Source: a virus. Taken from it: DNA of 30,013 nucleotides. Below the pieces are notes generated by a model. The model worked only from the letters and a program-made list of their open reading frames with translations. It ran no database searches and was not told the origin of the DNA. Position 1 is the first letter of the stretch. The number at the start of each line of letters is the position of its first letter. The position numbers were made by a program, and so were the translations under genes. Positions 1,925 through 29,232 of the stretch are shown piece after piece. The DNA lies in IMG/VR virus record IMGVR_UViG_3300025151_000194, positions 1-30,013 of that record; one strand, given 5' to 3'.

Positions 1925-1933
1925 TATATAATC
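1925..1933 (-). promoter_or_regulatory. TATA-like promoter for the protease-scaffold/capsid genes
   Basis: The minus strand reads GATTATATA between the stop of the 1800-codon gene and the first protease ATG. Its centre is about 27 bases upstream of protease codon 8 (ATG at 1901), the spacing expected for a leaderless archaeal transcript. The first ATG would then lie upstream of the transcript start. A separate promoter here would let the protease, scaffold and capsid protein be made in higher amounts than the genes upstream. Confidence 0.45.
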
Positions 1934-8501: not shown

Positions 8502-10235
8502 TCACATTCTCCTTATGTTGTTCATGGCTTGACTAAGCGGTGAGCCTTGTGGCCCTCGTTGCTGAACACTTGAAAACGGTGAGCCTGAACCCATGCTCGT
8601 TCGGTTCTGTGGACTGGCAGGTCCACGAGGTGTGCGTATTCCCATTCCCTCTCCTCCGGGTTGTGAAGCAGGCCCCTGTGCTTGTCTCAAGCCTGCACTT
8701 GCCTGACCTGCAAGTGCGCCTGCCAACTGTGGCGGCATATTACGACTTGGTAAGCCGCCGGGCTGTGCCATTGGTTGTGGACCTCCGGGCATTCCACCCA
8801 TCTGAGGCTGACCACCCATACCCGGTTCCATCGGCTTGTAGATGAATCGAATGTCTCGACCACCCTCCTCAATGAGTTCAGGCTTGAATCCGAGTTGTGC
8901 CATACGCTGTGCGATGTTGACCTCCATTTCGTCTCGTCGGAGTCGAGTAACTTCGTCCTCTTCTTCGTTTGGATAAAGCGTCAACTTCCAATCATGGATG
9001 TCCATCTCTTCCATCAATCGCGGGAACAGATGGTCGGTGTACACTTTGTGACCGAACTCAACAGCACGATTGGTAACAAGGATTTGCAAACCTTCGTTGT
9101 TGAGTCCGCCTGATTTACCTGTGTCCATCATAAACACGTTCGATACGCCATAGAACGCTGCAATACGGGTTCGCATTTCGTCACGGACAGCGATATACTG
9201 CATCTCTTCAAGGGTGTCCATGAACTTGACCCAGTTGACACCACCGCGTCCGCTTTGGCTTTCAATACCAATCTTCGGAATGTAGTGAGGGTCACGCTCA
9301 AGTTTTTCGTCAACGCCCTTCCAAAACGACTTCATCGATTCAAGGTTGTCCGTCGTAATTGAAATCAAACCACGTGGAACACGACGCTTACTGTATGCTG
9401 TGTACATGTAGTTGTCCATCGCTGTGAGCGTCATAGCCTGACGCCAAAGTGTTGACACAGGCGATTTACCATACAACTTCGACGGATTGTATTTACTGAC
9501 GTGAATAACTTCACCCTTGAGATAGTATTGTGTCTTCCCTGCACCACCTGTGTTGACGTGGTGCACGTCTTCTAATTCGTGATTGCATATCTCGCAGTTG
9601 TTGTCCGTTTCACTGTAGCCACGCACTTGATTACGATGCAATGGACAGACCTTGTATCGACCGCCACGCACGCCTCGCTTGTCAGCAACGATACGCATGA
9701 AAATGGGGTCGCCACGCAAAATCTCTTTGACACGGTAAAAGGCTACTTCGTTGGTCTCAGGGTCGACGTAGTATTCTTTGACGAGAATTAAGAACGCATC
9801 GTCCATGATGTTGAGGTCGTATTCAATCTCACGCAGCACATCCATGAAGTTCTGTTCCATTGAGTTGCGCTGTTCGACAAGCCATCGACCATACACGGTT
9901 TCGTTGGGGTCAGGGCTACGGACGTCGCCGCCACAATCAGTGCATGTATCAACGTCGTGCTGATATTCCTTTTCACATTCGTTGCACTTCATGTGGAACT
10001 TCTTGTCCCAATAGTAGCCACGTCGGAATATCTCTTGTTGAAGCGTTGAAAGCACCGTTCGGAGAATCAAGTTCTCAGATGCGACTGAATACAATGCAGG
10101 TATAGTGATACCCTGTACAATGACTGGTTCTTGAATACCCGTTGTGTACAACGGCATCTGAGGTTCAGGTGTACGTCGTCGTCGAAATCGGTCGGCTAAA
10201 CGACCGAGGACACCCTTAACACGTTCTTCCGCCAT
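8502..10235 (-). CDS. Portal protein with two zinc-binding insertions
   Basis: 577 residues in the portal position after TerL. Portal-like features are an early SENLILRTVLSTLQQEIFRRG helix, VIHVSKYNPSKLYGKSPVSTLWRQAMTL near the middle, and RDEMRTRIAAFYGVSNVFMM followed by a long helix. Two unusual insertions are visible: CNEC...CTDC (Cys84, 87, 98, 101) and CPLH...CEIC (Cys197, His200, Cys214, Cys217), each able to bind one zinc. The last ~90 residues are Gly/Pro/Gln-rich and disordered. The start ATG overlaps the TAA of the upstream gene (TAATG). The portal forms the dodecameric DNA channel at one capsid vertex and docks the terminase; the zinc sites may stabilise it (inference). Confidence 0.85.
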   Translation of the reverse strand: MAEERVKGVLGRLADRFRRRRTPEPQMPLYTTGIQEPVIVQGITIPALYSVASENLILRTVLSTLQQEIFRRGYYWDKKFHMKCNECEKEYQHDVDTCTDCGGDVRSPDPNETVYGRWLVEQRNSMEQNFMDVLREIEYDLNIMDDAFLILVKEYYVDPETNEVAFYRVKEILRGDPIFMRIVADKRGVRGGRYKVCPLHRNQVRGYSETDNNCEICNHELEDVHHVNTGGAGKTQYYLKGEVIHVSKYNPSKLYGKSPVSTLWRQAMTLTAMDNYMYTAYSKRRVPRGLISITTDNLESMKSFWKGVDEKLERDPHYIPKIGIESQSGRGGVNWVKFMDTLEEMQYIAVRDEMRTRIAAFYGVSNVFMMDTGKSGGLNNEGLQILVTNRAVEFGHKVYTDHLFPRLMEEMDIHDWKLTLYPNEEEDEVTRLRRDEMEVNIAQRMAQLGFKPELIEEGGRDIRFIYKPMEPGMGGQPQMGGMPGGPQPMAQPGGLPSRNMPPQLAGALAGQASAGLRQAQGPASQPGGEGMGIRTPRGPASPQNRTSMGSGSPFSSVQQRGPQGSPLSQAMNNIRRM

Positions 10236-11545
10236 TACAAGTCACTTCCCCAAGAGCGAATGGTATCGGCATCAACACCCCATTCATTTAGTTTCTTTTG
10301 AACTGCGTCAGCATCGTCCTTCCAGTTCTCAAACATAACCAACATACGATACTGCTCCTTTTTCATAGAGTCGCTCTCTTCAAGGAATCGCAATGCGGCC
10401 TTTGCTTGAGTCGACTTCAACTGCAAGTGCGGAAGCACTCCGTTAAGAACTTTCTTCAAATCATCTCGTGAGTGGAAATTGAGGCGATGTGTTGTTCGCT
10501 TGCTGTTCTTCGACATCTTTTCGTCGAGTGAAAGTGTGCCACAGCCAAGCGTTTTCTGCAAACGCTCGCAGTGAATACGTCCCCTGTCTCCAGTGGCTAC
10601 GGCTGATGCACGAACTTCACCACGCTTGGTGATAAAGATTGAACCATCAGCGTCCATGAATCCAGCGGCGTAGGCCCACGGGTCTTTGATAACAAGTCCA
10701 TCACATGAAAGGAGAACATATTCTCCACGTCGGGGTGCTTTGACAATGTCCATCTCCTCGCCAAACATCGAGAGCAACTTGCTCATACGTGTGGCTGACA
10801 GTCGGTTCACGCCCTTTTCGATAAGATTGGCCGTAATGTCACGAGCACCCATGTGCCCTTTGTCTTGCAACTCTTTCTTCGCCAACTCAAGCCAATTCTT
10901 CTGTTCTTTGCTGAGTGTATCGACTTGATGAAGTCCGCTTCGCCACATCTTGCGTGCGTCCTGTCGCTGTTGCATAGCAGTGACCCAAGCGCTTCGTTCC
11001 TCGTCGCCCCAAACATCCTCAAAGTCATCGAGCATCTTGAGGGCTTCGTCGGCTGCTTCCCACATATGACAAGCCCGTAGCAATGTTGATTCTCTTGCCG
11101 TACCAAACGTACGCAACGATTTGAGATTACGGTCGCTTAGACCAAGATTACGAATGGTGTCAGCGTGCTCAGTCGCCCATGGTATCGATGATATGGTTTG
11201 CTCCACTTCTTGAGCCTTGAGAGCACGCACGCTTTTGATAGCGCTGTCGATGTCGACCTTCATGTCCTTCATCTTGCGTCGAGCACGCTTGAGGTCCTTG
11301 ACAACTTCGTCAGCACTCTTACCAAGATACGCATCAAACCACGAGTCACCATTTTCGGGGAACACATGCGTCTCAATCTGTAGGATAGGTTGCTGTGGTG
11401 CAGCCTCTTTTGCGATTTTAACGGCCTTCATCATATCGTCACGAAGTGACGGATGACCCAAAAGCGAAGATGCAATCATGGTCGATTGTTCGTGACCCAT
11501 GTCAAGATGAATGTCTGATTCGCCTACGATAAGTGTCGGCCACAT
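10235..11545 (-). CDS. Helical/wHTH protein fused to a LAGLIDADG endonuclease-like domain
   Basis: ATG 11545 was chosen because GGAGATGAT lies four bases upstream; ATG 11554 is an alternative. The first ~220 residues are mainly charged helix and unrecognised. Residues around 225-280 look like a winged helix (ARDITANLIEKG...SATRMSKLLSMFGEEMD...GEYVLL). Residues about 285-436 carry one LAGLIDADG motif, AAGFMDADGSIFI, followed by the usual strands, TLGCGTLSLDEK, and the conserved end LPHLQLKSTQAKAALRFLEE. The aspartate is kept, so the nuclease could be active as a dimer. The open frame lies in line between TerL and the portal, with no intein splice residues seen. It could be a domesticated structural or DNA-packaging factor, or a mobile endonuclease captured by a virion gene. 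Confidence 0.75.
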   Translation of the reverse strand: MWPTLIVGESDIHLDMGHEQSTMIASSLLGHPSLRDDMMKAVKIAKEAAPQQPILQIETHVFPENGDSWFDAYLGKSADEVVKDLKRARRKMKDMKVDIDSAIKSVRALKAQEVEQTISSIPWATEHADTIRNLGLSDRNLKSLRTFGTARESTLLRACHMWEAADEALKMLDDFEDVWGDEERSAWVTAMQQRQDARKMWRSGLHQVDTLSKEQKNWLELAKKELQDKGHMGARDITANLIEKGVNRLSATRMSKLLSMFGEEMDIVKAPRRGEYVLLSCDGLVIKDPWAYAAGFMDADGSIFITKRGEVRASAVATGDRGRIHCERLQKTLGCGTLSLDEKMSKNSKRTTHRLNFHSRDDLKKVLNGVLPHLQLKSTQAKAALRFLEESDSMKKEQYRMLVMFENWKDDADAVQKKLNEWGVDADTIRSWGSDL

Positions 11546-11546
11546 A

Positions 11547-12311
11547 TCAATCATCTCCGTACGGGTCGTAGTTACCAACACCCGATTGTTCTTCTAAGAT
11601 GCGTTCCCACTCTTCCTTACCGTCATCCTCTTCTTCTTTCTTAGGAGGAGGGGGAGGAGGGCGTCGAACAGCCACACGTCGAGGAGGTCGAACGGTAGGA
11701 GGTTTCTTTGCATCGCCTCCTAACTTCGCCTGTTCACGACGATTGAACTCTGCAAGAACGCTTTCGATTGGAGCGTCAGGGTCTTCAATAGCGGTGGCTT
11801 GTTCAGGCTCTTTACCTTCTCGCCTTTGCTTACGTTCTTGATATTCCCGCTTTTTCTCTTGTCGAATACGCTCTTTCTCATGCTTTTCTTCTTCGGCTCG
11901 ACGCTTTGCTTCTTCGGCATCTTTCTCGGCTTGAACTCGTGTATCGTCCTTTGCTTGTGCTGATTGTTGTCGTTGTTCGCTAAGTTTACGAGACTGTTCC
12001 AAAAATTCTTGACGCTTAAGTTCTTTTTCATGGGTTCGCTTTTTCTTTCGCTCGGCTTCTTTTGTACCACGACCACCCATATAATCTTCCAATTCTTGTT
12101 TAAAGCGCTCAAGACCTCTTTTTAATCCTTCAAGAGACTTAGGCGTGACACCCATTAAGGCATTGACGTAGTCAGAATTTGTTTTGAGTTGATGCTCTTG
12201 TGTTTCTATTTTTCGCTGTTGCCTTTCAATAGCCTGACGCAACTGTTCTTCCTTTGACTGCTTGAGCAGCATCCACGCTACTTCAAACGGGTCAAGCAAC
12301 AAACCAATCAT
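11547..12311 (-). CDS. Tagged coiled-coil protein with poly-proline C-terminal region
   Basis: 254 residues, overlapping the 3' end of TerL. The N-terminus carries the recurring tag as DPFEVAWMLLKQ. A GGAGATGAT ribosome site points to a TTG start at 12302 rather than the ATG at 12311, which would place the tag at residues 3-11 as in the other tagged proteins. Residues about 15-190 are an almost uninterrupted Lys/Glu/Arg/Gln coiled coil. It is followed by PPTVRPPRRVAVRRPPPPPP, then an acidic stretch containing EEWERILEEQ. Possible roles are scaffold, tape-like or internal virion protein; none can be chosen from sequence. Confidence 0.75.
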   Translation of the reverse strand: MIGLLLDPFEVAWMLLKQSKEEQLRQAIERQQRKIETQEHQLKTNSDYVNALMGVTPKSLEGLKRGLERFKQELEDYMGGRGTKEAERKKKRTHEKELKRQEFLEQSRKLSEQRQQSAQAKDDTRVQAEKDAEEAKRRAEEEKHEKERIRQEKKREYQERKQRREGKEPEQATAIEDPDAPIESVLAEFNRREQAKLGGDAKKPPTVRPPRRVAVRRPPPPPPKKEEEDDGKEEWERILEEQSGVGNYDPYGDD

Positions 12312-14795: not shown

Positions 14796-16792
14796 CAAAC
14801 CCCTCCGTTGAAGGTAACCTTGACGACCTTGACGACCTGTGGACTGACGTTCCACTCTTTAGCGATACGGTGCCAGTCTCCACGTGAGTGCAACAGTCCG
14901 TGAACGTCCATCGACGTTATGCCCAAGTCTTTGGCGAATAAGCCGACTGACTGAATTGAATTGAGTTGAATAGGATTGTGAGGGAGCATCTTAAGGATTG
15001 TAGCATCTTGCTTAGCGTCCTCCAGTTGGATGTGCTCCATGGCTTCTGTGATTTCAGCCACCTGTGCCTTTTGAAAATCGGTCAATCGCATTTGACCCTG
15101 AGGCAACTCTTCCATCGGAGGTGCCTCAGCCATAGGCTCCGGTGTAAGAACAGGCATTTCAGTTTGTTGCCCCGCACGAGCCTGAGCAGCGGTCATGTTC
15201 GGATGTGCTGTATCATCATGTATATGCGCCTCGGCATACCGAGGAACGACTGTTGTATAACCACGACGCATGTGTTCTTCGCCCAACGGTTCAAAGGCTA
15301 AGTGACCTTCCGGTAGGTCAGGAATTCCCATCTTCTCTTTCAACTGACCGAATTTGTCTCGACCCAACGCCTGTAGTTCATCACTACGTGTGTGTTTATC
15401 ATGTATGTAATCATGGGATGCAAATCGTTGCTTTATCATCTCTTCAACTTCTTCGGGCGGGTAGCCTTCGGCTACCAATTGTTGCGCTATGTATCGTGGT
15501 ATAGCCAACAAGTGTCGTGAATGTTTGTGTCCATCACGAGAATGAATTGAGTTGAGTATGTTTTGGTATTCTTTCGATTGCATGTCGATGCCGAGGTCAT
15601 TACCTATCGCATTCAGAATGTTTCCGGGCATTGAGTTTTTGCGGCTTTCAGCAAACGCAAAGTGCGTTTTTGGCATGCGGAGCAAATGATATGCTTCTTC
15701 GTCGGTGACTTCGATGTCATGCTCAGCAAATTTTTCCTTAATCGTCTCCGCTGTCAAGTTACCTTGCTTTGTGCCGACGGTATCAAACATAGCCTGCGGA
15801 GCAAAATCAAGACCTTGAAGCGAGTGAAAGTCTGTAATCGGGCGCTCATGACCCGCTTCAAAACGTTCATGCCGTCCACGGTCATGAGCCACTTTGTGAA
15901 ACGTCAAGTGTTCAAGATGTATCACTGGGTTGTTGAGGTACGTTTCCTTGCCGCCTCCAAAAGAATCTTGAGAAAACTGAATCATTTGGTCAAACGCTTT
16001 TGCAATTTCGGGGTCGTTGATGTCGACATTGAAAGCAGGGTTTTGCATCATGTCAACGATACGTCTGAAATAATTCTTGACAGGGTCTTGCATTTCTTCA
16101 TGCATGTGATTGACGCCTGAGTCGATAAAGTTACCTTGGTCGGAGTGTTCAGACAAAACGTTACCCTTGTTGAGAGCATAGTTGATGATTGGATTTTGAA
16201 CACCGTCATCCGATGTTCCGCTACCCCTTGTCATACGCATAGCACCTCCACTGTCTTTGTCAAAAGTGCCAACAGTGTTACGACGCCATTCAACGCTGTC
16301 AACACCGGGCAAAAGGTGCGTTGCATCTTCGCCATGGACGTCAGCATGCTTTGCGTTGAATGCGTCGATAGCAGGCGTCATGACCATCTGTTTGACGATT
16401 TCCTCGGCCTTACCTTGACTAAATCCTAAAATCTTACGCGCGTATTTTGCCAAGTCGTAAATCATGTAGTCCATAGGGTGAAACGTGTGTGGGCGCTCGG
16501 CAAGTTTTCCATCTCTGTGAGGGTTGGATGGGTCGTAATCATTTTGCCACAGGAGTTCCTTTGAGTCGTGGTCAAAGCCAAACGGCGGGTGATGTGCAGG
16601 GACATCGCCTTCAAACTGGTGATACCATGGGTGGTCAGATTCGTGCGTGCGAATAGCCTCTTCGGGGTACCATTCAGACCACGCATCGCCGTTCCTACCG
16701 CTTGCCCGACCATGCTTGAGTCGATACGCTTTGAGAATCTCCGTCGGTTCGGGTTCAGGAAAAAGAATATGTCGGGGTGTGTACTTGAACAT
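14795..16792 (-). CDS. Large His-rich structural protein, unknown function
   Basis: 665 residues, starting at ATG 16792, which overlaps the TGA of the upstream gene with GGGAGAGTGG just before it. The sequence is unusually rich in His, Asp, Gln and Met, much like the N-terminal two-thirds of the 1800-residue protein, suggesting the two belong to a related class of virion proteins. The C-terminal ~60 residues look like a helix-turn-helix: KDLGITSMDVHGLLHSRGDW, then HRIAKEWNVSPQVVKVVKV. A DNA-contact role at packaging is possible (inference). I recognise no catalytic motif. It shares the operon with TerL and the putative small terminase. Confidence 0.7.
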   Translation of the reverse strand: MFKYTPRHILFPEPEPTEILKAYRLKHGRASGRNGDAWSEWYPEEAIRTHESDHPWYHQFEGDVPAHHPPFGFDHDSKELLWQNDYDPSNPHRDGKLAERPHTFHPMDYMIYDLAKYARKILGFSQGKAEEIVKQMVMTPAIDAFNAKHADVHGEDATHLLPGVDSVEWRRNTVGTFDKDSGGAMRMTRGSGTSDDGVQNPIINYALNKGNVLSEHSDQGNFIDSGVNHMHEEMQDPVKNYFRRIVDMMQNPAFNVDINDPEIAKAFDQMIQFSQDSFGGGKETYLNNPVIHLEHLTFHKVAHDRGRHERFEAGHERPITDFHSLQGLDFAPQAMFDTVGTKQGNLTAETIKEKFAEHDIEVTDEEAYHLLRMPKTHFAFAESRKNSMPGNILNAIGNDLGIDMQSKEYQNILNSIHSRDGHKHSRHLLAIPRYIAQQLVAEGYPPEEVEEMIKQRFASHDYIHDKHTRSDELQALGRDKFGQLKEKMGIPDLPEGHLAFEPLGEEHMRRGYTTVVPRYAEAHIHDDTAHPNMTAAQARAGQQTEMPVLTPEPMAEAPPMEELPQGQMRLTDFQKAQVAEITEAMEHIQLEDAKQDATILKMLPHNPIQLNSIQSVGLFAKDLGITSMDVHGLLHSRGDWHRIAKEWNVSPQVVKVVKVTFNGGV

Positions 16793-17931
16793 CAACCCAC
16801 TCTCCCGCTACCACGTGCTGCAAAGACGTGACCGGGCATACCTGATGATGACATCTCGTCGGAATCAGTGCTATCAGTTCCGCCTTGCGGGTTCGTTGTT
16901 TCTCCTCGATGGCCTGCCTCTTTGTTCTTCTTGCTACCACGAGAAAGAGGTGCTTTCTTCATTCGGTCTTGTCGTTCGACGATTTTCTTCAAGTCACGAA
17001 TCATTCGTCGGAGTTGTGAGATGTGAAGATAGTCCTTTGCTGACTTGAGCAACATGTTCATTTCTTGAAGTTCTGACTTCTTGGTTTCGCCTGCAAGTCG
17101 AGGAATCCTACCTGAACCCATGAATCCGGGCTTCGTAGGCGTACGTTGCTCGATGTTGTGAGGCTGATGAGGCATAGAAATATTGCCCATAAGGGCACGC
17201 TGATGTCGTTGGCCGAGTTGTTGTCGATACTTTGCAGGGAACAATCGCAATGGTTGCTTGGTCGAAAGACCCAAGTGACCCATCTCAACAGCGAGTGGCG
17301 ATTCAGTCTGACCACCATGTTCTGTACGTGGGCTGAGTGTACGTGCCTGTCGACTACTTCGCAATGACGTGGCTAAATCAGGTCGGCGTCCACCGGGTGG
17401 ACCATCGTACTTTGGTTGTTGCCACGGTTTGTTTTGCTTCGGCTTTATGTTTTTCAAACTACTCTTCATCAACGTCGACCAAGCGTCGTCCATCGGCTCA
17501 CCTGTAGCAACCAGTGGTCGGTAGCCTCCCATGACACCGTTTGTCTGTGCACCAAGTGCTTGAGACAAATCAGGTCCGCCTGTACCAAGTGCGCCTGCCA
17601 TAGCCGACATGTCAGATGCCATAGCGTCTTGTTCAGGATTGTACATGTTGGGGTTTTCCTCTTCTTGTTGAGGTTCTTCCATTCCACCCATCATCGGGTC
17701 TTCGTCAGGCTTGTCGACGGTGATTTGAAGATGTGGTGTATCACCGACTGTTTTGGTTTCTTCACGTCGACGCATCTTCTCATCACGTCGGCGCTCTTGT
17801 TCTTCGGCATCACCTGCACCATGCCTGTATGAATCCTCGTCATCGGATGCATACATACGACTTGATTCTGAGCGAGGAGCATACATACGGGTATCAGAGC
17901 CACGTCCCATTCCTCCGAATCCACTTGGCAT
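16792..17931 (-). CDS. Disordered virion-type protein with internal tag motif
   Basis: 379 residues, with a GGGGAGGTGGA ribosome site before ATG 17931 and a TGATG overlap with the upstream gene. Most of the chain is low complexity: acidic and Arg-rich at the start, Met/Gln/Gly-rich to about residue 140, basic Gly/Pro/Arg-rich after 160. In the middle, residues 144-158 read GEPMDDAWSTLMKSS, a variant of the recurring tag and like GEPMDLAFRLLK in the 718-residue protein. A helical segment (MNMLLKSAKDYLHISQLRRMIRDL) lies near 280-310 and contains LLKSA. Function unknown; probably an internal or head-associated protein. Confidence 0.7.
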   Translation of the reverse strand: MPSGFGGMGRGSDTRMYAPRSESSRMYASDDEDSYRHGAGDAEEQERRRDEKMRRREETKTVGDTPHLQITVDKPDEDPMMGGMEEPQQEEENPNMYNPEQDAMASDMSAMAGALGTGGPDLSQALGAQTNGVMGGYRPLVATGEPMDDAWSTLMKSSLKNIKPKQNKPWQQPKYDGPPGGRRPDLATSLRSSRQARTLSPRTEHGGQTESPLAVEMGHLGLSTKQPLRLFPAKYRQQLGQRHQRALMGNISMPHQPHNIEQRTPTKPGFMGSGRIPRLAGETKKSELQEMNMLLKSAKDYLHISQLRRMIRDLKKIVERQDRMKKAPLSRGSKKNKEAGHRGETTNPQGGTDSTDSDEMSSSGMPGHVFAARGSGRVG

Positions 17932-20855: not shown

Positions 20856-21548
20856 CTATGAGGAAAGTAAGTCAATCATCGTGTTTTCAACGTTCCATCC
20901 GATGCGTGTTGCCATCATCGAGCGCATGGTTGGTACGCCTGCTTTCTGCAATCGCACGAGGTCTTCTCGGAACGGGTCGAAAATCTTGTGCTCACCCAAC
21001 CGCTGCTGTTGCCAAAGCACATTTGCTTGGTCATCCCACCACTGGTCGGCTTTGTTTGCAACGAGTAAAATCATCTTTGGACAATACTTCTTACCACGCA
21101 ATCGAGAACGTAGGTTTCTGTATCGATACTGTCGATGAATAAGTGCATCACACAGGAATTTGAATCCGCCTACTGCTTGGAGTGCAGGTTCTCCTCCCAT
21201 TCGCACACGATGGTCAAACATGAAAACGACTGCCTCCACGTTTCGATTCACCATGTCGTCAATCCAAAGGTTCCAGTAGCGTTCTTCGCCACCCATGTCC
21301 GAAGAATGGACAACACGTCGCTCACCTTTCCACCGTACCCGCTTACGCGTAGCACGGGGCAACAGATACTTGCCGAGTATTTTCGTGTGGGATGTCCTGT
21401 TTTCGACAGGTATGTCCTCCATTTCTCCGGGTGTCGTCAGATACTTGTCGAGTGTTGTCTTACCGACCATGCTTGGCCCATAGATACCAACACGTCGTGG
21501 AACCCAGTAGTGATACAACTCTCGTGCGAACACAAGTCCGCCGACCAT
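20856..21548 (-). CDS. Ras/Arf-like small GTPase
   Basis: ATG 21548 was chosen; the longer frame to 21719 would lie inside the upstream gene. The 230 residues carry all main G motifs: G1 GPSMVGKTT (24-32), G3 DMGGEERYW (84-92), G4 NKAD (165-168) and a G5-like MMATRIGWN (212-219), with a threonine-containing G2 region near 50-55. Order and spacing fit Ras-superfamily GTPases of the Arf/MglA type. The DxGG with a following Glu at the Gln position is notable. The N-terminal ~18 residues are partly hydrophobic and may associate with membrane. The preceding gene makes a one-helix membrane protein, so the pair may act together. The role in a virus is unknown; intrusion into host membrane or cytoskeletal switching is conceivable. 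Confidence 0.85.
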   Translation of the reverse strand: MVGGLVFARELYHYWVPRRVGIYGPSMVGKTTLDKYLTTPGEMEDIPVENRTSHTKILGKYLLPRATRKRVRWKGERRVVHSSDMGGEERYWNLWIDDMVNRNVEAVVFMFDHRVRMGGEPALQAVGGFKFLCDALIHRQYRYRNLRSRLRGKKYCPKMILLVANKADQWWDDQANVLWQQQRLGEHKIFDPFREDLVRLQKAGVPTMRSMMATRIGWNVENTMIDLLSS

Positions 21549-21568
21549 TGCTGAGCCTGCTGCCGCAC

Positions 21569-21817
21569 TCAATCGAACCAACCACCCAGCCAATTCGACA
21601 ACTTCTCGCCAAACCACTGTGCAGTTGTGTCCCAAAGACTCCAGTCGCTGTGAAACTCGATTGCGCTCACGGTGAGTGCTGAGGCGATTGAAAATACGAC
21701 GGTCTTGAGCCAACCCCATGCTCGTTCGTATGCGGTATCAACCGTGTTGGCGATGTGCATAGCACGAAGTGTAGCCTCAGTGCTGTCATCGGTCGGCGTT
21801 TTGAAAATACGACCCAT
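21569..21817 (-). CDS. Small membrane protein preceding the GTPase
   Basis: 82 residues, with GAGGTGACC before ATG 21817. Residues 35-55 form one hydrophobic segment (GWLKTVVFSIASALTVSAI), followed by an amphipathic Trp-rich C-terminus (WSLWDTTAQWFGEKLSNWLGGWFD). Just before the membrane segment, AYERAWGWLK (29-38) fits the recurring tag pattern, though this could be chance in a Trp-rich helix. It ends about 20 bases before the GTPase start, so the two are probably co-translated. Confidence 0.7.
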   Translation of the reverse strand: MGRIFKTPTDDSTEATLRAMHIANTVDTAYERAWGWLKTVVFSIASALTVSAIEFHSDWSLWDTTAQWFGEKLSNWLGGWFD

Positions 21818-22443: not shown

Positions 22444-22474
22444 GGACTGAGAGAAGAGGGACGACTCTCAGTCC
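22444..22474 (-). terminator. Perfect 10-bp hairpin at the end of the 22468 gene
   Basis: GGACTGAGAG (22444-22453) pairs exactly with CTCTCAGTCC (22465-22474), leaving an 11-base loop. The right arm contains the stop codon of the gene ending at 22468, and a TATA-like box follows within 20 bases. It is probably a transcript-end or RNA-processing structure separating two transcripts. No clear poly-U tract follows, so intrinsic termination in the bacterial sense is not shown. Confidence 0.45.
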
Positions 22475-23511
22475 TTGGAATCTCGCTTTCCGTCCGTCGA
22501 AGGACCGGGTCCAGCGTTCTTGGAACCAATGACAATCACCATGCCGTGTGCTGGTTTCTTGCCTTTCTTGTCGTCGGCCTTCTTTTTCTCGTCGCACTTG
22601 CAGTCTTTGCCGCACTTTGGACAGTCGGCTTTTGCTGTGGCACAGTGCATTTTGTCGAGGTCTTCAAGCGTCTTGCGAAGCATTTCGTTGCCGTCGTAGT
22701 GTGTAAATGTCATTGTCTCACCTTTTTGTTTGAATGTGCCTGAACCGCCCTGTTGCCAAATCTGTTCTCGTCCCGTCTGACCGACTCCTACGTTTTGAAG
22801 ATTTTGGTTGCCTGCCGACGGGTCGCCTGCGAGACTGAACTGTCCTTGCTGCTGTTGGCCTCCGCCCATACCGCTACCTGAGGGTGCTGCTGCACCGCCT
22901 CCGCCCACAGACATGTTGCCAAGAGCGTCAGCAATTTGCTTGCCTGCGTAAGCGATGCCACCTCCGACTGCAAGCGGCGTCAGTATACTACGTTGCTTGG
23001 GCGCCTTTGCTGCTTTTGGTGCATACCTTGCTACTCTTGCATTTGCTTGCTGCATAGCCGTGCGTGCTGCACCGACCTGTGACGGAGGGAGTGTTGAAGT
23101 TGATGGACCGAACACATAGCCGATTTCAGGGTTACGGGACTGTGCTAATGCACGACTTTGTTGGGCTGACATACGAGCATGCTTTGCACCTGCTTCCGCT
23201 GCTTCTTTTTGTGCCGCTGCGTACTTACCTGCACGTCGACGTGCCAGTACTTTGCCGCCAACCTTGCCGCCTAACTTCAAGCCGCCCAACGGGAGGACAC
23301 CTTCTCCAAATCCCGTTGCGAGTTGCAAAGCCGTGCTTCCAAGAGAATTGTCTCCCTCAGCCAACTCCCTGCCGGTAATTGGATTTGTGACCTTGTTGTC
23401 TCGTACATTCTTTATGCCTCGATAAGCGCCGTAAGCCAACATCGCTGGCAATAAAATCTTACGAACTTCCTCCTCAGGCTTGAGGACTGAGAAGGCTGCA
23501 TCAATCGGCAT
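22468..23511 (-). CDS. Tagged Gly/Ala-rich protein with C-terminal Cys cluster
   Basis: ATG 23511 was chosen (MPIDAAFSVLKPEEE); GGAAGGTGAT lies upstream, and this places the tag at residues 2-11 as in the other tagged proteins. The 347-residue product has hydrophobic Gly/Ala stretches (about 17-27, 60-85 and 170-195) that may interact with membrane. Much of the rest is Gln/Gly low-complexity sequence. A metal-binding-like cluster, CATAKADCPKCGKDCKCDE, lies near residue 295-315. The tail is basic and Gly-rich. Inference: an internal virion protein that might act on the membrane or DNA at entry. No family is recognised. Confidence 0.7.
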   Translation of the reverse strand: MPIDAAFSVLKPEEEVRKILLPAMLAYGAYRGIKNVRDNKVTNPITGRELAEGDNSLGSTALQLATGFGEGVLPLGGLKLGGKVGGKVLARRRAGKYAAAQKEAAEAGAKHARMSAQQSRALAQSRNPEIGYVFGPSTSTLPPSQVGAARTAMQQANARVARYAPKAAKAPKQRSILTPLAVGGGIAYAGKQIADALGNMSVGGGGAAAPSGSGMGGGQQQQGQFSLAGDPSAGNQNLQNVGVGQTGREQIWQQGGSGTFKQKGETMTFTHYDGNEMLRKTLEDLDKMHCATAKADCPKCGKDCKCDEKKKADDKKGKKPAHGMVIVIGSKNAGPGPSTDGKRDSKD

Positions 23512-23707
23512 AGACAAACATATCACCTTCCTCTACCATCGTTCTGTACTTCTTACGCATGAATGTAAAGTATTCCTGAGCCTCAATCAAGTCAACGATG
23601 AGTTCAGGGTGTTCGTCAACATGCTCCTCAAGCATGTCCACGCACTTTTCGATTTGACATAGCATGTAGTCATACGCAGTGACGACCCAATGTGGTAACA
23701 TACTCAT
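23501..23707 (-). CDS. Small acidic helical protein
   Basis: 68 residues from ATG 23707, chosen for the AAGGAG ribosome site and the ATGA overlap with the preceding gene; the longer frame would sit inside that gene. The sequence is helical and acidic (CQIEKCVDMLEEHVDEHPELIVDLIEAQEYF) and ends EEGDMFVYAD. Its stop overlaps the start of the tagged 347-residue protein by 11 bases. Function unknown. Confidence 0.65.
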   Translation of the reverse strand: MSMLPHWVVTAYDYMLCQIEKCVDMLEEHVDEHPELIVDLIEAQEYFTFMRKKYRTMVEEGDMFVYAD

Positions 23708-25860
23708 CGCTTCTCCTTGCTCTTGCAGTGTGCTCGGCACGAAAAGCCTTTGGGAGCGTTGCAGTTGCAATGCGACATGTCTCGCTTGAGCAACCTGAAC
23801 GCCAAGTCCATAGGCTCGCCTGTGTGAATATCTTGGAACTCATCAGAAAACTGACCACTATCGCCCATTGATGGAAAACTTTGTTTGTATCGTTCTCTTA
23901 AATGGTCATAATGAGGGCTTGTCATCATTTGCATAAGTTGATATTCTCCCTGTTGTTCTAAGTCGTCCTCGTATTCTTCATCACTTGGATATTCTTCACG
24001 AGAAGGCATATTCATTTCAGCCAACTTATACGCTTCATCCTGTAAAGCCGTCATCATGCCTAATTGCCGACGAATTGCCTCTTCGCTATCGTTTTTAAGC
24101 AATCTGAACGCCAAGTCCATAGGTTCGCCTGTTGTGAAGTACGTGTCTTCGTTGAAAGGCATACCACGGAATGTTGGGACTCTTGCCATTGCTCGACTGT
24201 AATATCCAGCAGGTTTGTCATCCACCTTTGTTCCGTGAGGACTGACGAGTTCTGTTTGTACACCCGGCATTTGATACACTTCGGCATGAAACATCCCATC
24301 GCCTTCCATGTCGTCTTCATCATCTACGTCACGAGAAAGGCGAGCCATTTGCTTAGGGTCAGCAATTTGAAACTGTTGACCGAACACTACAGGGCGAGGA
24401 TTGGGTAACGGGAATAGAGCATTCTCACCTGCTACCGTAGGTTCAACGGCTGTTGAATGACCCAAAGGTGTATCGAAAATATGTCGTGAACTTATACCGG
24501 GATGTACCGAAGGGTCTTTGCGTGCACGTTCCATTGCTTCAAACTGTTTCATTTTTACAGGAACTTTTCGATGCATCGACATAAACGTATCAACAACTGG
24601 GTCAGGTGTTTCTTCATCAAACGCTTCAAACGGTTCTTCTTGCTTGATAACAGGCTCAGGTATTATAACAGGCTCAGGTATTGGATTGCCTGCTTCGTCG
24701 AATCGCATTCGCTCTAAGGATGACTGTTGCTCAAGAAGTTGCTGACGTTGCTTTTCTGTATCGTCAAGAATTTTGCTTTCTGCCTTGTCCCTTCTCTTTT
24801 TCGCCTCTTGGTATCTTGCCCTTTCTGCATCCACCACTGTGTCAGCACTTTCGTTAATCAAATTGGATAATCTTGTAGGGAAATTGACCTTAACCGCACG
24901 ACTTAGTGGTCGACTATACAATTGCATCAACTCTTCACCAACTGCTTGCAAATCTTTCTGTTGCCGTTGTTGTGCAGTATCAGGTAGTGGTAGTGTTTCG
25001 CCACCACCTGTTCGGAACCCCGGTCGAACGAGCGCAAATGGTCTTCGCGGCTCGCCCTGCACACTTCGGGGAGTTTGTTTCAAGTTTTTTCCTCGTCGAA
25101 ATTTGCTCGGAGGTCCAACATCAACAGGTATCGTGCTGGCTTTGCGCCCTTTTGAACGAGGAGAAGCAAAATCCATCACTTGACCCGTGCTCAATGCCTC
25201 TTCCAAATCTCGCTCATCTTTCTCATCAGCCTCTTCGTTTGCCCGTACTCTTTGTCGGTTTCTTTTTGCTTCAGGATAAGTGCGGACATACACCCCTTTT
25301 GCTCCTCCTCGCGTGTATTGTGGTTGCAACTTTCTTTCTTGCATACGCATGTGCGCCATAGGCAAATGCTCAGCGCTTGTACGAACATCCTTTTCATTGA
25401 TTGGCTTTAACTCTCCTTCATCACCAACTACCTGTCGCCCTTCTTTGAGCGCTTGTCTAAGTTTTCGTCGAGTGTCGTAGTCTGAATAACGATACTTGGC
25501 TTTACTTGGATTTTTGACAGGTGGTCTCCGCTTTCGCTTCGTAGGTATGCGTATTTTGCCACGGCCTTTGAGAACATTTACTCCTTTGACAATCGTCGGC
25601 TTACCACCTACGCCTTGTTTCTTGCTTCGCTTACGCTTGGTCGCTGCACGCTTTTGACCTGACGTCATTGAGCCACTGGTCTTGGGCGTCTTGCTACTAA
25701 CCTTAACCGAAGGTCGACACTTTGGATAGCCCTTGCTTGAGGTTTTTGCTTTACTTCGACCGCACGGAGGATGCTTACCATCCTTGTTACGGCGTGAAAC
25801 GTCGACCCACTTTTCTTTGAACCATCGGTTCAAGTTTTTGCGGACGAAGACTTTGCTCAT
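23704..25860 (-). CDS. 718-residue basic protein with two internal tag copies
   Basis: ATG 25860 was chosen (ATGA overlap, GGGGAAG upstream). The N-terminus (about 1-90) reads KWVDVSRRNKDGKHPPCGRSK, then KGYPKCRPS and KTSGSMTSGQKRAATKRKR. I recall similar short Cys-containing basic domains in marine viral proteins (DUF5872-like); this is memory, not a search. Residues 90-250 are very basic, 250-570 mostly disordered with helical parts. TGEPMDLAFRLLK occurs twice, with its Lys at residues 589 and 692. The last copy is followed only by a short Cys/Lys tail (HCNCNAPKGFSCRAHCKS). Inference: a nucleic-acid-binding internal virion protein, possibly cut at LLK-(N/R)-D. Confidence 0.75.
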   Translation of the reverse strand: MSKVFVRKNLNRWFKEKWVDVSRRNKDGKHPPCGRSKAKTSSKGYPKCRPSVKVSSKTPKTSGSMTSGQKRAATKRKRSKKQGVGGKPTIVKGVNVLKGRGKIRIPTKRKRRPPVKNPSKAKYRYSDYDTRRKLRQALKEGRQVVGDEGELKPINEKDVRTSAEHLPMAHMRMQERKLQPQYTRGGAKGVYVRTYPEAKRNRQRVRANEEADEKDERDLEEALSTGQVMDFASPRSKGRKASTIPVDVGPPSKFRRGKNLKQTPRSVQGEPRRPFALVRPGFRTGGGETLPLPDTAQQRQQKDLQAVGEELMQLYSRPLSRAVKVNFPTRLSNLINESADTVVDAERARYQEAKKRRDKAESKILDDTEKQRQQLLEQQSSLERMRFDEAGNPIPEPVIIPEPVIKQEEPFEAFDEETPDPVVDTFMSMHRKVPVKMKQFEAMERARKDPSVHPGISSRHIFDTPLGHSTAVEPTVAGENALFPLPNPRPVVFGQQFQIADPKQMARLSRDVDDEDDMEGDGMFHAEVYQMPGVQTELVSPHGTKVDDKPAGYYSRAMARVPTFRGMPFNEDTYFTTGEPMDLAFRLLKNDSEEAIRRQLGMMTALQDEAYKLAEMNMPSREEYPSDEEYEDDLEQQGEYQLMQMMTSPHYDHLRERYKQSFPSMGDSGQFSDEFQDIHTGEPMDLAFRLLKRDMSHCNCNAPKGFSCRAHCKSKEKR
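23790..23823 (-). repeat. Direct repeat, copy 1 (encodes the C-terminal tag)
   Basis: 34 bases that match 24099-24132 with two differences. Both copies are in frame and encode GEPMDLAFRLL, 309 bases apart within the 718-residue gene. The near identity at DNA level suggests recent duplication or conversion of the tag. Confidence 0.8.
24099..24132 (-). repeat. Direct repeat, copy 2 (encodes the internal tag)
   Basis: Partner of the repeat at 23790-23823; only two of 34 bases differ, both at silent positions. Confidence 0.8.
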
Positions 25861-26063
25861 TTCTTCCCCGCCCATGCATCGCACACGTGGTCAGCACGGC
25901 ACGTAAAGTCGTACCACTCACAATAACCCGTCATCGGGTCGTCTGTTTTCGACGAATCCCAAGCCTTGCAATTGCCGCACTTTTGCGGACCTGTTGCCTT
26001 TCGATAATTCGGAGCATCCTCTTTGCCCTTGATAATAGCCCACGCTGCTTCAAGAGGGTTCAT
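25857..26063 (-). CDS. Tagged Cys-rich mini-protein
   Basis: 68 residues, with GGGAGGGAAG before ATG 26063. The N-terminal MNPLEAAWAIIKGK is a full tag. It is joined to a compact Cys domain: Cys29, 32, 48, 55 and 61 in KCGNCKAWDSS...GYCEWYDFTC...VCDAWAG. The pattern recalls small iron-sulfur or zinc-binding proteins seen in marine viruses, including HiPIP-like domains; the metal cannot be decided. It lies between two very basic proteins and overlaps the 718-residue gene by four bases. It is a clear example of tag plus unrelated domain. Confidence 0.75.
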   Translation of the reverse strand: MNPLEAAWAIIKGKEDAPNYRKATGPQKCGNCKAWDSSKTDDPMTGYCEWYDFTCRADHVCDAWAGKK

Positions 26064-26521
26064 TTTTTCTTCCCTCCCTTCTTCTTACCTCGGAACTTAC
26101 CTCGACAGTATTGAACTGCCCATCCGTTAGCGTAAGCCGAAGGATAGACTTTGAATTTGCGCTTGGCTGCCGCTTTACCTGCTGGGCATAACTTCTTTTC
26201 CAACACGTCGATGGCTGCATGCATACCTGTACAGTGCTCGCAATCACACGACTTTTGCACGGGTCGTAGTGTCCCTTTGTCCTTGAAGTGACGTGCACGG
26301 TTGTCATGCTCGTCCTCGATTGTCAATTTGTTACCCTGTGTGTGACTGATGTCTCGATGACTACCGTCACCGTACATGCCACGTTTGCGACGTTCTTGAT
26401 TCAACTCTTCACGATACTTAACTCGCTTTGGTGAAGATTCGTACTTGGTGTCGTACTCAATCTTGTGACGCTTAGCCTCAGGTGATTGAATACGCTTGAC
26501 CAAGACTGTCAACAGTTCCAC
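26060..26521 (-). CDS. Basic protein with YPSAYAN motif
   Basis: 153 residues. The frame starts with GTG 26521, but AGAGGTGG favours TTG 26512, giving MTVLVKRIQSPEAKR, whose VLVKR recalls the LK motif. The middle is charged with CDCEHC (zinc-like). The C-terminal part reads KAAAKRKFKVYPSAYANGWAVQYCRGKFRGKKKGGKKK. I recall the KRKFxVYPSAYAN-WA-x-C-KG string from many marine viral proteins with no known function. The charge suggests DNA or RNA binding. It overlaps the 26063 gene by four bases and belongs to a run of three basic or Cys-rich proteins. Confidence 0.75.
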   Translation of the reverse strand: MELLTVLVKRIQSPEAKRHKIEYDTKYESSPKRVKYREELNQERRKRGMYGDGSHRDISHTQGNKLTIEDEHDNRARHFKDKGTLRPVQKSCDCEHCTGMHAAIDVLEKKLCPAGKAAAKRKFKVYPSAYANGWAVQYCRGKFRGKKKGGKKK

Positions 26522-26823
26522 CTCTTGAGGGCTGCACCTTTTGGCGTCAATTTACCTTTCTTACTTGTAGGCCCTTTGACGCCAGCCATACGTGCACAGA
26601 ACGACTTTCGTCGCTTGGCCTTTTTGCCACCCGGCTTGAGTTTGCTTGGCTTCGTCGTAACAGGTGGCTTGAGGTTTGCACCTGTCTTGCGCTTGGCCGC
26701 TGCACGACCTTTGGCGTTCAGTCCGCCTTTTTTGTGATGTTTATTCGGATTGTACCCGTGAAACGGCTTGGACTTCTTCTTTGCTTTGAGAATGTCCCAA
26801 GCCACTTCAAAAGCGTCCGCCAT
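26509..26823 (-). CDS. Tagged basic protein (KRRKSFCARM family-like)
   Basis: ATG 26823 was chosen because it places the tag at the N-terminus (MADAFEVAWDILKAKK); the longer frame overlaps the upstream zinc-ribbon gene. The 104 residues continue with GLNAKGRAAAKRKTGANLKPPV, then PGGKKAKRRKSFCARMAGVKG and a C-terminal ALKRWNC. I recall this conserved block from marine viral proteins (a DUF6321-like family); this is memory only. Very high Lys/Arg content suggests a nucleic-acid-binding internal protein. No SD site precedes the start, so leaderless or coupled translation is possible. Confidence 0.75.
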   Translation of the reverse strand: MADAFEVAWDILKAKKKSKPFHGYNPNKHHKKGGLNAKGRAAAKRKTGANLKPPVTTKPSKLKPGGKKAKRRKSFCARMAGVKGPTSKKGKLTPKGAALKRWNC

Positions 26824-26849
26824 GTGGTGTGACAGAAAGCCACATGATT

Positions 26850-26990
26850 TTATTGTTTCCACATGCATTCGCAGGCGGGGCAGTGCCAAGCAAAACCTTC
26901 TTGCTTGTTCTGACCCTTGGTTTTAATGTACAATCGTTGAGTAGGGCGGGTCAAACAGTCAGGACATGCGGGGCTTCGACTGCGACCCAT
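26850..26990 (-). CDS. 46-residue zinc-ribbon protein
   Basis: Translated by hand: ATG 26990 to TAA at 26850, with no interruption. MGRSRSPACPDC opens a ribbon with Cys9, 12, 37, 40 and 42 (CPDC ... WHCPACECMWKQ), a standard two-knuckle zinc ribbon. A TATA-like box (TTAAATATA) about 23 bases upstream and no SD support a leaderless transcript. Such proteins often bind DNA or RNA or basal transcription factors; nothing more specific is visible. It lies 28 bases after the HMG-CoA lyase stop. Confidence 0.7.
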   Translation of the reverse strand: MGRSRSPACPDCLTRPTQRLYIKTKGQNKQEGFAWHCPACECMWKQ

Positions 26991-27018: not shown

Positions 27019-27858
27019 CTAAGCGATGGTCGGCTGTGCTTGAAGGGCTTTGACCTTGTCCGCCCACACAAGTGCACCTTGCAAATCGTCAACGGTCAAA
27101 CCGACGTCGAAGGCATGGTCGTTCAAGTACTGAACCAAACGTTCAGTAGCGAGGTTGCCACCGCTACCTTCAACGAACGGACAGCCTCCCAATCCCCCGA
27201 TACTGGAATCGAATTGCGTGATACCTGCAAAAATACCATACTTGACTCGCTCAAGTGCTTTGTTCTCTTCTCCTTCGCTGTGGTGAAGATGCAAAGCGGA
27301 AGTAAGTGAATACTCACGTGCATAGTCGGCTGCAATTTCAATCTCTTCACGTGTTGCTCTGCCGACAGTGTCTGCAAAAACAACGGTTGAGCCGAGCATT
27401 GAAGCGTCACGCACGCATTGTTTGAGTAAATATGGTGCAATTTCACCCGAATATGGGCTGCCAAACGCCATTGAAATGTAAACACGTACGTTTTCTTTGG
27501 GAATTCCTTGAAGCATGTTCTTGAACATGTATACCAATTCCGTACGTGTACGTCCCATGTTGTTGATGTTGAACGTCTCGCAGGGTGAAAACACCACGTT
27601 GAACAGTTTAACGCCCGCTGCCAGCGCTCGTTCCATGCCTTTTGGGTTCATAACCAGTGCTGCACCATAAGCGTGCACATCCTCGGCATCAGCCATCTGT
27701 GGCACACGCTTTGGGTGCACGAACGAAACCTCTTCGATGTGTTCGATACCTGATTTGTAGAGTTCTGAAATCATTCGACGTTTGACGTCTGTAGGTACGA
27801 ACACAGGTAAATTTTGCAATCCGTCCCGTGGTCCTACTTCATAAACTGTCAAGCGCAT
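27019..27858 (-). CDS. mvaB: Hydroxymethylglutaryl-CoA lyase
   Basis: 279 residues, slightly shorter than the usual ~300. HMG-CoA lyase splits HMG-CoA into acetoacetate and acetyl-CoA. The family signatures are intact: EVGPRDGLQN with Arg11 and Asp12, FADTVGRA (161-168), metal ligands in HLHH (His190, His192), the GGLGGCPF loop with catalytic Cys226, and GNLATE with Asn235. The TIM-barrel strands run through the whole length, so the gene appears complete. It has its own TATA-like box. In archaea HMG-CoA is the entry to the mevalonate route for membrane lipids, so a viral copy could divert it, or salvage acetyl-CoA (inference). A related acyl-CoA lyase with another substrate is possible. Confidence 0.9.
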   Translation of the reverse strand: MRLTVYEVGPRDGLQNLPVFVPTDVKRRMISELYKSGIEHIEEVSFVHPKRVPQMADAEDVHAYGAALVMNPKGMERALAAGVKLFNVVFSPCETFNINNMGRTRTELVYMFKNMLQGIPKENVRVYISMAFGSPYSGEIAPYLLKQCVRDASMLGSTVVFADTVGRATREEIEIAADYAREYSLTSALHLHHSEGEENKALERVKYGIFAGITQFDSSIGGLGGCPFVEGSGGNLATERLVQYLNDHAFDVGLTVDDLQGALVWADKVKALQAQPTIA

Positions 27859-27879
27859 GTTCGCCTCACAAGCATTCGC

Positions 27880-27888
27880 TATACTTAA
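27880..27888 (-). promoter_or_regulatory. TATA-like promoter of the HMG-CoA lyase gene
   Basis: TTAAGTATA on the minus strand is centred 26 bases before ATG 27858, the textbook archaeal distance for a leaderless transcript. GTGAGG six bases before the ATG could also serve as a weak ribosome site. I see no gene in the 156 bases between 27858 and 28015. Confidence 0.5.
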
Positions 27889-28014
27889 CGATAGAGGTGG
27901 ATGGGCGAGGGTTGGAAAGAAGAAAGGAACCCTGAGAGGTGGTTATCCTTGACATTGAAGCCCAAGAAGGAAAAAACCAACCCTCACCCGATAAGTCTGA
28001 TTCAGGCGATTTAC

Positions 28015-28188
28015 TTAATCCTTTTGTATGAAAGCGGAATTTCGCAAGCCACCGATGCAGTCTTGCTGAACTTCTTCCTCAGTGATGAGGATTGTTTTGT
28101 CACGCAAGTCTTCTGTGATGAACCATGTTGTCAAGAATCCCACTACAAAAGCAATGAATGCAATTATCAAGTATTCTGCCCAACTCAT
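28015..28188 (-). CDS. 57-residue single-pass membrane protein
   Basis: Translated by hand from ATG 28188 to TAA 28015, with no interruption. It starts two bases after the stop of the preceding tagged gene, whose end (GGTGTAAAC) can act as a ribosome site. Residues about 5-23 are hydrophobic (EYLIIAFIAFVVGFLTTWF), followed by an acidic soluble tail (ITEDLRDKTILITEEEVQQ). Close spacing indicates co-transcription with the gene upstream. Function unknown; a membrane or lysis accessory is possible. Confidence 0.65.
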   Translation of the reverse strand: MSWAEYLIIAFIAFVVGFLTTWFITEDLRDKTILITEEEVQQDCIGGLRNSAFIQKD

Positions 28189-28190
28189 GT

Positions 28191-28496
28191 TTACACCAGT
28201 TCTCGTCCAAGGTTTTCAGGCGTCATACCCTCAGGTGCACCCATGTTACCACCGTATTCTTGTCGGCCTGCTTGTTGCTCCATGGTTGGTATTCGAGGTG
28301 CTGGTCCTTGACCTTGCATGAAGCGTTTAAGTTCTTGTTTGATTCGGTCAGCGTGTGCCTTCATTGGCCCAGTTGAGTCGCCATATTGATTGACAAAATC
28401 ACGAGCAGCCTCAATCGGCGCTAAAGCACGCATCTCGTTTGGCCCACGAGGGATTGATTTGAGAATCAACCATACGTGTTCAAAAGGAGCGTCCAT
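28191..28496 (-). CDS. Tagged small helical protein
   Basis: 101 residues. The N-terminus MDAPFEHVWLILKSIPRG is the recurring tag with Val before the Trp. After it come helices (IEAARDFVNQYG, MKAHADRIKQELKRFMQGQG) and a Gly/Met/Pro-rich tail. No family is recognised. The ATG at 28496 has no SD; TTTTTACC centred about 26 bases upstream could be a weak promoter box. It belongs to a row of consecutive tagged genes from 28191 to beyond 30013. Confidence 0.7.
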   Translation of the reverse strand: MDAPFEHVWLILKSIPRGPNEMRALAPIEAARDFVNQYGDSTGPMKAHADRIKQELKRFMQGQGPAPRIPTMEQQAGRQEYGGNMGAPEGMTPENLGRELV

Positions 28497-28536: not shown

Positions 28537-28986
28537 TTATGCACCAAGATATGTACCTTGTTCCATATCAACCAAGCCTTCTTGACCCATCTTGTCCCAA
28601 AACGGCACTGACCTATCGAGCATTTCATGGGGGATGAGGTTGACAGGTCCACCATGTGCTTCTTGTAAGTCGTTTTTCAACTCAGTCAAACCCTGACGCC
28701 CAAGTCCACGTTCTCGCATCTCTTGACTTACAGCAAACGTGTCGATAGCATAGTTGTTGTCGCCTAAGTGAATAAGCCCTGCGCGTGCATTTTTATCCTT
28801 CGACTCAAAGAAATGACTGTATTTTCTCTTCAACCCCTCGTAATCGGTGAAACCTTGAAAGCCCAGTTCAGGTTTTCGTAGTTTTGGAAAGTTAAACGCA
28901 TCGCTGTAACCAACATCTGATATGGTGTCTTCCTGAAATAGTGGGGCCTTGATGATAGCCCAAGCCACATCAAAGGGGGTTGTCAT
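28537..28986 (-). CDS. Tagged GNAT-like acetyltransferase
   Basis: 149 residues. MTTPFDVAWAIIKAP is the tag. Residues about 60-149 look like a GNAT fold: a strand YAIDTFAVS, then SQEMRERGLGRQGLTEL, matching motif A with the (R/Q)-x-x-G-x-(G/A) acetyl-CoA loop. Next come NLIPHEMLDRSVPFWDKMGQEGLVD, with the usual late FWxKxGF-like helix and strand. GNAT enzymes transfer acetyl from acetyl-CoA to amines or protein N-termini and lysines; the target is unknown. If the tag is a virion signal, this would be an enzyme carried in the particle (inference). The domain is short, so activity is uncertain. Confidence 0.7.
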   Translation of the reverse strand: MTTPFDVAWAIIKAPLFQEDTISDVGYSDAFNFPKLRKPELGFQGFTDYEGLKRKYSHFFESKDKNARAGLIHLGDNNYAIDTFAVSQEMRERGLGRQGLTELKNDLQEAHGGPVNLIPHEMLDRSVPFWDKMGQEGLVDMEQGTYLGA

Positions 28987-28998
28987 ACGCCATCACAT

Positions 28999-29232
28999 CT
29001 ATTTTTGTGGCCCTATTGGGGAAAATCCGCCTTGCATCATCTGTTCAATGTACGCACGAATGGCAGCCTTTTGCTCAGCCATCTGTGGGTCAAGCATTTC
29101 GCCTTGTTCAGCATCGTTTCGCTGTCGGTCCATTTCACGCTTCGTCCTGTTGGTTTGTGTTGAACGTGCAGGTCCGTCTTCCGGCGGGACAAGTGATTTC
29201 AGTATGCCCCATGCTGTATCGATTGGTTGCAT
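28999..29232 (-). CDS. Tagged small charged protein
   Basis: 77 residues, with AGGAGATGA before ATG 29232. MQPIDTAWGILKSLVPPEDG is a canonical tag. The rest is a charged helix (TKREMDRQRNDAEQ, MAEQKAAIRAYIEQMMQGG) with a Gly/Pro/Gln tail. No domain is recognised. The SD overlaps the stop of the preceding tagged gene, so the two are translationally coupled. Confidence 0.7.
   Translation of the reverse strand: MQPIDTAWGILKSLVPPEDGPARSTQTNRTKREMDRQRNDAEQGEMLDPQMAEQKAAIRAYIEQMMQGGFSPIGPQK

Follow-up and report, generated by a model that had tools for sequence, protein, structure and literature searches.

The 30,013-nt stretch of viral DNA analyzed here (the window) contains an intact gene for a protein with the catalytic residues and the predicted fold of HMG-CoA lyases. 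The gene is under purifying selection, recurs in viral contigs that also encode PolB and a chaperonin, and is linked to a gene for a membrane microprotein. We favor, with some reserve, the reading that this magrovirus-specific branch of the family cleaves HMG-CoA or a close 3-hydroxy-acyl-CoA of the host, with the microprotein as its partner, and so diverts isoprenoid carbon. The elements concerned are the following:

27019..27858, minus strand: HMG-CoA-lyase-like enzyme (DRE-TIM metallolyase) of 279 amino acids, with an HLHHSEG loop at residues 190-196.
27859..28014, minus strand: gap of 156 nt between the microprotein and lyase genes, containing TTAAGTATAG; a 4-nt ATGA overlap is found instead in 39 relatives.
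28015..28188, minus strand: membrane microprotein of 57 amino acids, MSWAEYLIIAFIAFVVGFLTTWFITEDLRDKTILITEEEVQQDCIGGLRNSAFIQKD, studied by script search, alignment, AlphaFold, dN/dS (0.11-0.15) and co-occurrence.

The lyase gene is an intact open reading frame of 279 codons on the minus strand (27858-27019) with zero internal stops. Its product matches the Pfam family HMGL-like (PF00682) over residues 4-259 (E = 7e-18; 65.4 bits vs. a cut-off of 29), and a phmmer search of the PDB returned HMG-CoA lyases only, with 1ydo as the top match (E = 6e-43). The earlier note, which reported a complete HMG-CoA lyase gene at this position, was correct in that the gene is intact. The dN/dS values of the gene are 0.045-0.063 in the close trio consisting of the window and its two nearest relatives, L002 and L003, and 0.02-0.10 among other close viral pairs, which indicates strong purifying selection.

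In an AlphaFold model (pLDDT 93.6), for which related sequences from viruses and bacteria were aligned, the protein clearly adopts the fold of HMG-CoA lyases. When this model was compared with PDB structures, all eight HMG-CoA lyase entries ranked first (Z 33.8-36.3), with rmsd values of 1.9-2.2 over 263-270 residues and 30-34% identity, followed by aldolase-dehydrogenases (Z ~27) and isopropylmalate and homocitrate synthases (Z ~26 or less). The predicted structure is a TIM barrel with D12, H190, H192, and N235 as metal ligands and R11 as a catalytic residue. It shares with the cellular HMG-CoA lyases (1ydn, 1ydo, 2cw6, 2ftp, and 6nds; identity 30-34%, Z 34-36) this barrel, the D/HxH/N ligands, the catalytic Arg and Cys, and a GGLGGCPF-type Cys loop. 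The only good match to the lyase in a library of viral structures was the HMGL-like protein A0A1V0SKU2 of Klosneuvirus KNV1, which has the same fold (TM 0.88; 30% identity) but belongs to a giant virus of eukaryotes with no close relation to the virus studied here.

Residues R11, D12, Q15, E42, Y127, S129, D163, T164, H190, H192, C226, and N235 are invariant in all 61 viral copies. If the residues are numbered as in the human enzyme, by a correspondence taken from the alignment of the PDB search and from the enzyme literature, the catalytic set (R11, D12, E42, D163, H190, H192, C226, and N235 in the window protein) consists of Arg41, Asp42, Glu72, Asp204, His233, His235, Cys266, and Asn275, and all eight are identical in the 61 viral copies. 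Outside this set, some positions differ from the cellular enzymes. In an alignment whose HxH columns were set by anchoring on ALHxH, the HxHDTxG motif reads HxHH in 61/61 viral copies, whereas HxHDT is present in 79 of 80 bacterial sequences, the latter being the 80 best matches of one scan with two peptide patterns. The stretch between HxH and the following conserved Asp comprises 26-27 positions in nearly all viral copies vs. 24 in the bacterial ones, i.e., a loop extended by 2-3 residues. The position of human Ser201 is occupied by Val in all 61 viral copies and by Ser or Ala in 78/80 bacterial ones, that of human Glu279 is not a Glu in 14 of the 61 viral copies, and, compared with the cellular enzymes, the variable loop after residue 62 is shorter. 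Hence, the earlier statement that all signature residues are present applies to the six residues named there (Arg11, Asp12, His190, His192, Cys226, and Asn235), but not to the HxHDTxG motif or to Ser201. The altered active-site loop of the magrovirus lyase appears to be a new observation. Judging from the alignment, the changed loop, the substitution of Ser201, and the variation at Glu279 may give the viral lyase a different substrate or different kinetics.

That the enzyme acts on HMG-CoA, as had been assumed, is suggested by its lyase fold and active-site chemistry, but the window protein scores below the curated cut-off of the NCBIfam model for HMG-CoA lyase, NF004283 (204.8 vs. 246 bits). 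Because this cut-off is missed and the HDT sequence is replaced, HMG-CoA is a substrate that we can only infer. The protein could also, in line with one of the refuting outcomes named in the earlier note, be a DRE-TIM lyase for another 3-hydroxy-acyl-CoA, or catalyze a reverse condensation, with the HxHH loop and Val201 as marks of a new specificity. The loop sequence and length, the missed cut-off, and the presence of HxHH, HxHK, or HxHE in more divergent viral classes are all consistent with this view. However, the metal-holding and catalytic residues are unchanged, and no other DRE-TIM enzyme is structurally as near as the HMG-CoA lyases; we consider such a different specificity unlikely.

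Relatives of the lyase with 51-95% identity were found in IMG/VR at 60 viral loci, on about 60 contigs. One of them, L003, lies on a 103-kb contig (record G002) from another metagenome; its lyase is 91% identical to that of the window, and the local gene order is the same, i.e., a tagged 105-aa protein (the tag is described below), the microprotein, the lyase, and then a DUF6321 protein. Since the window is a single, linear 30-kb record, an assembly chimera, or bacterial DNA contaminating a viral contig, could have been imagined, but the gene and its surroundings recur in L003, about 60 viral contigs carry it, and the best bacterial identity is only about 40%. These explanations, the first of which had been named as a possible refutation, are extremely improbable and were ruled out on the basis of the number of contigs and the conserved local order. 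The lyase gene recurs among viral genes in separate viral contigs and is under selection, which are two of the features by which an auxiliary metabolic gene is recognized.

The virus itself can be placed by the features used for Magrovirales, i.e., PolB together with other replication genes, a genome of 80-110 kb, and an archaeal-type portal, terminase, and prohead protease. The latter three proteins of the window are of the type found in archaeal tailed viruses. The portal is 28-29% identical to those of the haloarchaeal tailed viruses HVTV-1 and HCTV-5 of the Druskaviridae, but no lyase was found in any of the records of these viruses. The window is a 30-kb fragment without PolB or a replication region, which is present in its nearest long relative, L003/G002 (103 kb). 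PolB was detected in 23 of the 42 records tested, including every record of at least 77 kb, and a chaperonin in 18/18 long viral records. Since near-complete relatives contain both, the window derives from a magrovirus-type archaeal tailed virus, in agreement with how magroviruses are portrayed in the literature, and the earlier description of the genome as archaeal-virus-like is supported. YSH_150918 of the Aoguangviridae is similar, at the level of annotation, in having HMG-CoA lyase, PolB, a chaperonin, and HK97-type head genes. According to published accounts, magroviruses abound throughout the surface ocean; they are tailed viruses assigned to Poseidoniales, a host assignment taken from the literature (PMC10160649; PMC10768690).

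In a quick tree of viral and bacterial sequences, all viral lyases grouped on one side with a branch support of 100, and the bacterial relatives, the only ones returned by the genome scan, were at most about 40% identical. Distances between lyases correlate with those between portals (r = 0.64, p = 0.0002 when the two close relatives of the window are included; r = 0.49, p = 0.014 when they are left out), which suggests, but does not prove, that the lyase has mostly been retained vertically in these viruses. A lyase is encoded in 18 of 33 records selected by their portal alone, and in eight of the ten such records of at least 90 kb, one of the eight being a fragment at a contig end. Moreover, HMG-CoA lyase was already listed among the auxiliary metabolic genes of magroviruses and placed in leucine degradation (Xu et al., 2023; PMC10160649), and the ICTV profile of the Aoguangviridae mentions it as a host-metabolism function of YSH_150918 (PMC10768690). 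Thus, contrary to the earlier proposal, the gene is not unusual in this virus group, and its mere observation is not new. Both publications give the annotation only; no reference to the altered motif, to the microprotein, or to its overlap with the lyase gene was found in them.

Annotated phage records yielded only three HMG-CoA lyase matches, at 33% identity. The records CAKLQH020000001.1 and CAKLQF020000001.1, designated "Acinetobacter phage MD-2021a", contain an HMG-CoA lyase gene beside genes for a CoA-transferase, a transporter, and a catalase, and this is probably bacterial DNA within the record. Divergent HMGL-like classes are also found in magroviruses (L236-L243, in records G063, G051, G057, G061, G059, G050, G054, and G052). 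The microprotein is absent there, and the sequences after HxH are of the types HHG..GRM, HKPS, and HEPQ. For L238, one TAA was reported inside the matched stretch, yet an open frame of 293 codons spans the match.

The microprotein was overlooked in the earlier reading of the window; with 57 aa, it is below the 60-aa limit of the list of open reading frames. It is encoded 156 nt upstream of the lyase gene on the same strand. In 44/61 loci, the gene directly upstream of the lyase, on the same strand, encodes a microprotein of 43-58 aa that combines a single hydrophobic helix with a tail following the pattern EELxEMCxxGLRRGxQ (C..GLR motif). At 39 of the 61 loci, its stop codon and the start codon of the lyase share the 4-nt ATGA overlap, which is present in 18 of 29 representatives with <88% identity; in the window and in four relatives, a spacer of 100-275 nt lies between the two genes. 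AlphaFold predicts a confident membrane helix at residues 3-24 and a less certain C-terminal helix at residues 37-53, and dN/dS values of 0.05-0.17 point to purifying selection. At 17/61 loci, no microprotein could be recognized, so the lyase has no strict requirement for it. The two most divergent class-A viruses, L058 and L059, contain a different single-helix membrane protein of 47-48 aa (MLPDPVEVTGLPLWVLCVILGLISFFVTLYWP...) ~360 nt upstream of the lyase, which is perhaps an analog of the microprotein.

A profile of the microprotein was searched against 45 whole viral records, many of which are fragmentary. All 14 matches were in records with the window-type class of lyase, i.e., in 14/22 viruses with this lyase vs. 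0/23 without it (Fisher p = 2e-6, uncorrected for relatedness). Of the latter, 15 had no detected lyase, and eight had other or only partial lyases; when these eight are excluded, the association has a Fisher p of 7e-5, again among related, non-independent viruses. The lyase-linked membrane microprotein appears to be a new finding. It had zero significant family matches in Pfam and PHROGs. Two of 20 microproteins weakly matched a holin family (E 0.057-0.088, under the cut-off), and three of 20 resembled an Rz-like spanin at an insignificant level (E 0.31 at best). Together with the resemblance of a short single-helix protein before an enzyme gene to a lysis cassette, and with the 100-275 nt that separate the genes in the window and four relatives, these matches would fit a microprotein that is holin-like or another membrane protein, encoded by a late gene that merely stays adjacent to an unrelated lyase gene. 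We regard this as possible but rather doubtful, since the confinement of the microprotein to viruses with the window-type lyase argues against a general lysis gene, for which a wider spread would be expected. The simplest reading is that the microprotein would be a partner or membrane anchor of the lyase.

The earlier note had also assigned the lyase gene its own TATA-like promoter, which is doubtful. The upstream sequence TTAAGTATAG of the window, however, reads TTAAGTACAG in both nearest relatives, L002 and L003, and, as the start of the lyase gene overlaps the preceding stop in 39/61 loci, a separate promoter does not characterize the family. The proposed connection via acetyl-CoA with a nearby GNAT-like protein is not supported either:

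28537-28986, minus strand: GNAT-like protein, with a marginal Pfam match (2e-5).

Besides the weakness of this match, the protein is absent from the corresponding place in L003, near which an unrelated protein is encoded. The lyase and microprotein genes have the same orientation in the window as those for terminase, portal, and prohead protease, all being on the minus strand, and this shared orientation suggests that the pair is expressed late.

Archaea make HMG-CoA for the mevalonate pathway, which leads to isoprenoid lipids. Neither HMG-CoA reductase and HMG-CoA synthase nor thiolase and enoyl-CoA hydratase were found in any of 17 long viral records; therefore, the virus would contribute a single step and act on a substrate made by the host. 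In the mechanism that we favor, magroviruses have long held a virus-specific branch of HMG-CoA lyase, which is typically translated together with the microprotein and most likely converts HMG-CoA, or a close 3-hydroxy-acyl-CoA, of the host into acetyl-CoA and acetoacetate. The coupling to a membrane microprotein suggests an enzyme with a membrane partner, and, since HMG-CoA leads into the mevalonate pathway, carbon would likely be diverted during infection from isoprenoid membrane lipids to acetyl-CoA. A more far-reaching version, in which a late module with the lyase held at the membrane by the microprotein destroys HMG-CoA and so weakens the archaeal membrane to aid lysis or release, seems quite improbable to us; such a module would correspond, in archaea, to the phage proteins by which the synthesis of cell-wall precursors is blocked, an analogy to which we attach as little weight.

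Alternatively, the lyase could boost catabolism by completing the breakdown of leucine, or a related compound, in the host, thus converting degraded protein into acetyl-CoA and acetoacetate for energy or biosynthesis. The published annotation as leucine degradation (PMC10160649) agrees with this, as does the capacity of Marine Group II archaea to degrade proteins and fatty acids, some of them having branched-chain amino acid transporters (PMC6336850). However, the enoyl-CoA hydratase and thiolase families are among those lacking from the 17 viruses, and we give this explanation a rather low probability. No mention of HMG-CoA lyase was found in two genome papers on Marine Group II, one of them being that cited above (PMC6336850).

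Lyase-bearing viruses have other recurrent features. A nine-residue tag, [FM][DE]xAWxxLK, is found in many unrelated proteins; small proteins carry it N-terminally (M..PFDxAWxILK), and elsewhere it lies within the sequence, following "GEPM". It has 219 matches in the 3369 open reading frames of 61 loci, vs. 1.3 expected from shuffled proteins, and occurs in 45/61 loci, including L003, L004, L005, L012, L032, and L058, among others. It was never found on the HMG-CoA lyase itself at any of these loci. The tagged open reading frames of the window are:

11547-12311, minus strand: tagged protein.
16792-17931, minus strand: tagged protein; a looser match, spotted by eye.
22468-23526, minus strand: tagged protein.
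23704-25884, minus strand: tagged protein.
25857-26063, minus strand: tagged protein.
26509-26889, minus strand: tagged protein.
28191-28496, minus strand: tagged protein.
28537-28986, minus strand: tagged protein (GNAT-like, see above).
28999-29232, minus strand: tagged protein.

The tag could be a signal for virion targeting, cargo, or processing, and it may be more novel than the lyase finding itself. Among the structural genes, a protein with small-GTPase-like motifs (GPSMVGKTT, SDMGGEERYW, and NKAD) is encoded at 20856-21719 on the minus strand and is conserved in L003 (15217-16005); it had no Pfam or PHROG matches. A protein of 1800 aa (1932-7334, minus strand), encoded beside the portal and prohead protease, has a weak match to ATP-dependent DNA ligase at residues 1353-1481 (E = 4e-4, under the cut-off). 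Finally, the product of 10235-11581 (minus strand), located between terminase and portal, resembles homing/HNH endonucleases in its C-terminal part (match of residues 302-410 to phrog_5046).

Among the "auxiliary" genes of magroviruses, the lyase represents a distinct, selected viral branch of its family. The label "HMG-CoA lyase" for an enzyme with an altered active-site loop should be used with caution. With the linked microprotein, what had been a one-line annotation becomes a two-protein system open to testing, which could explain how these viruses handle a host with an isoprenoid membrane.
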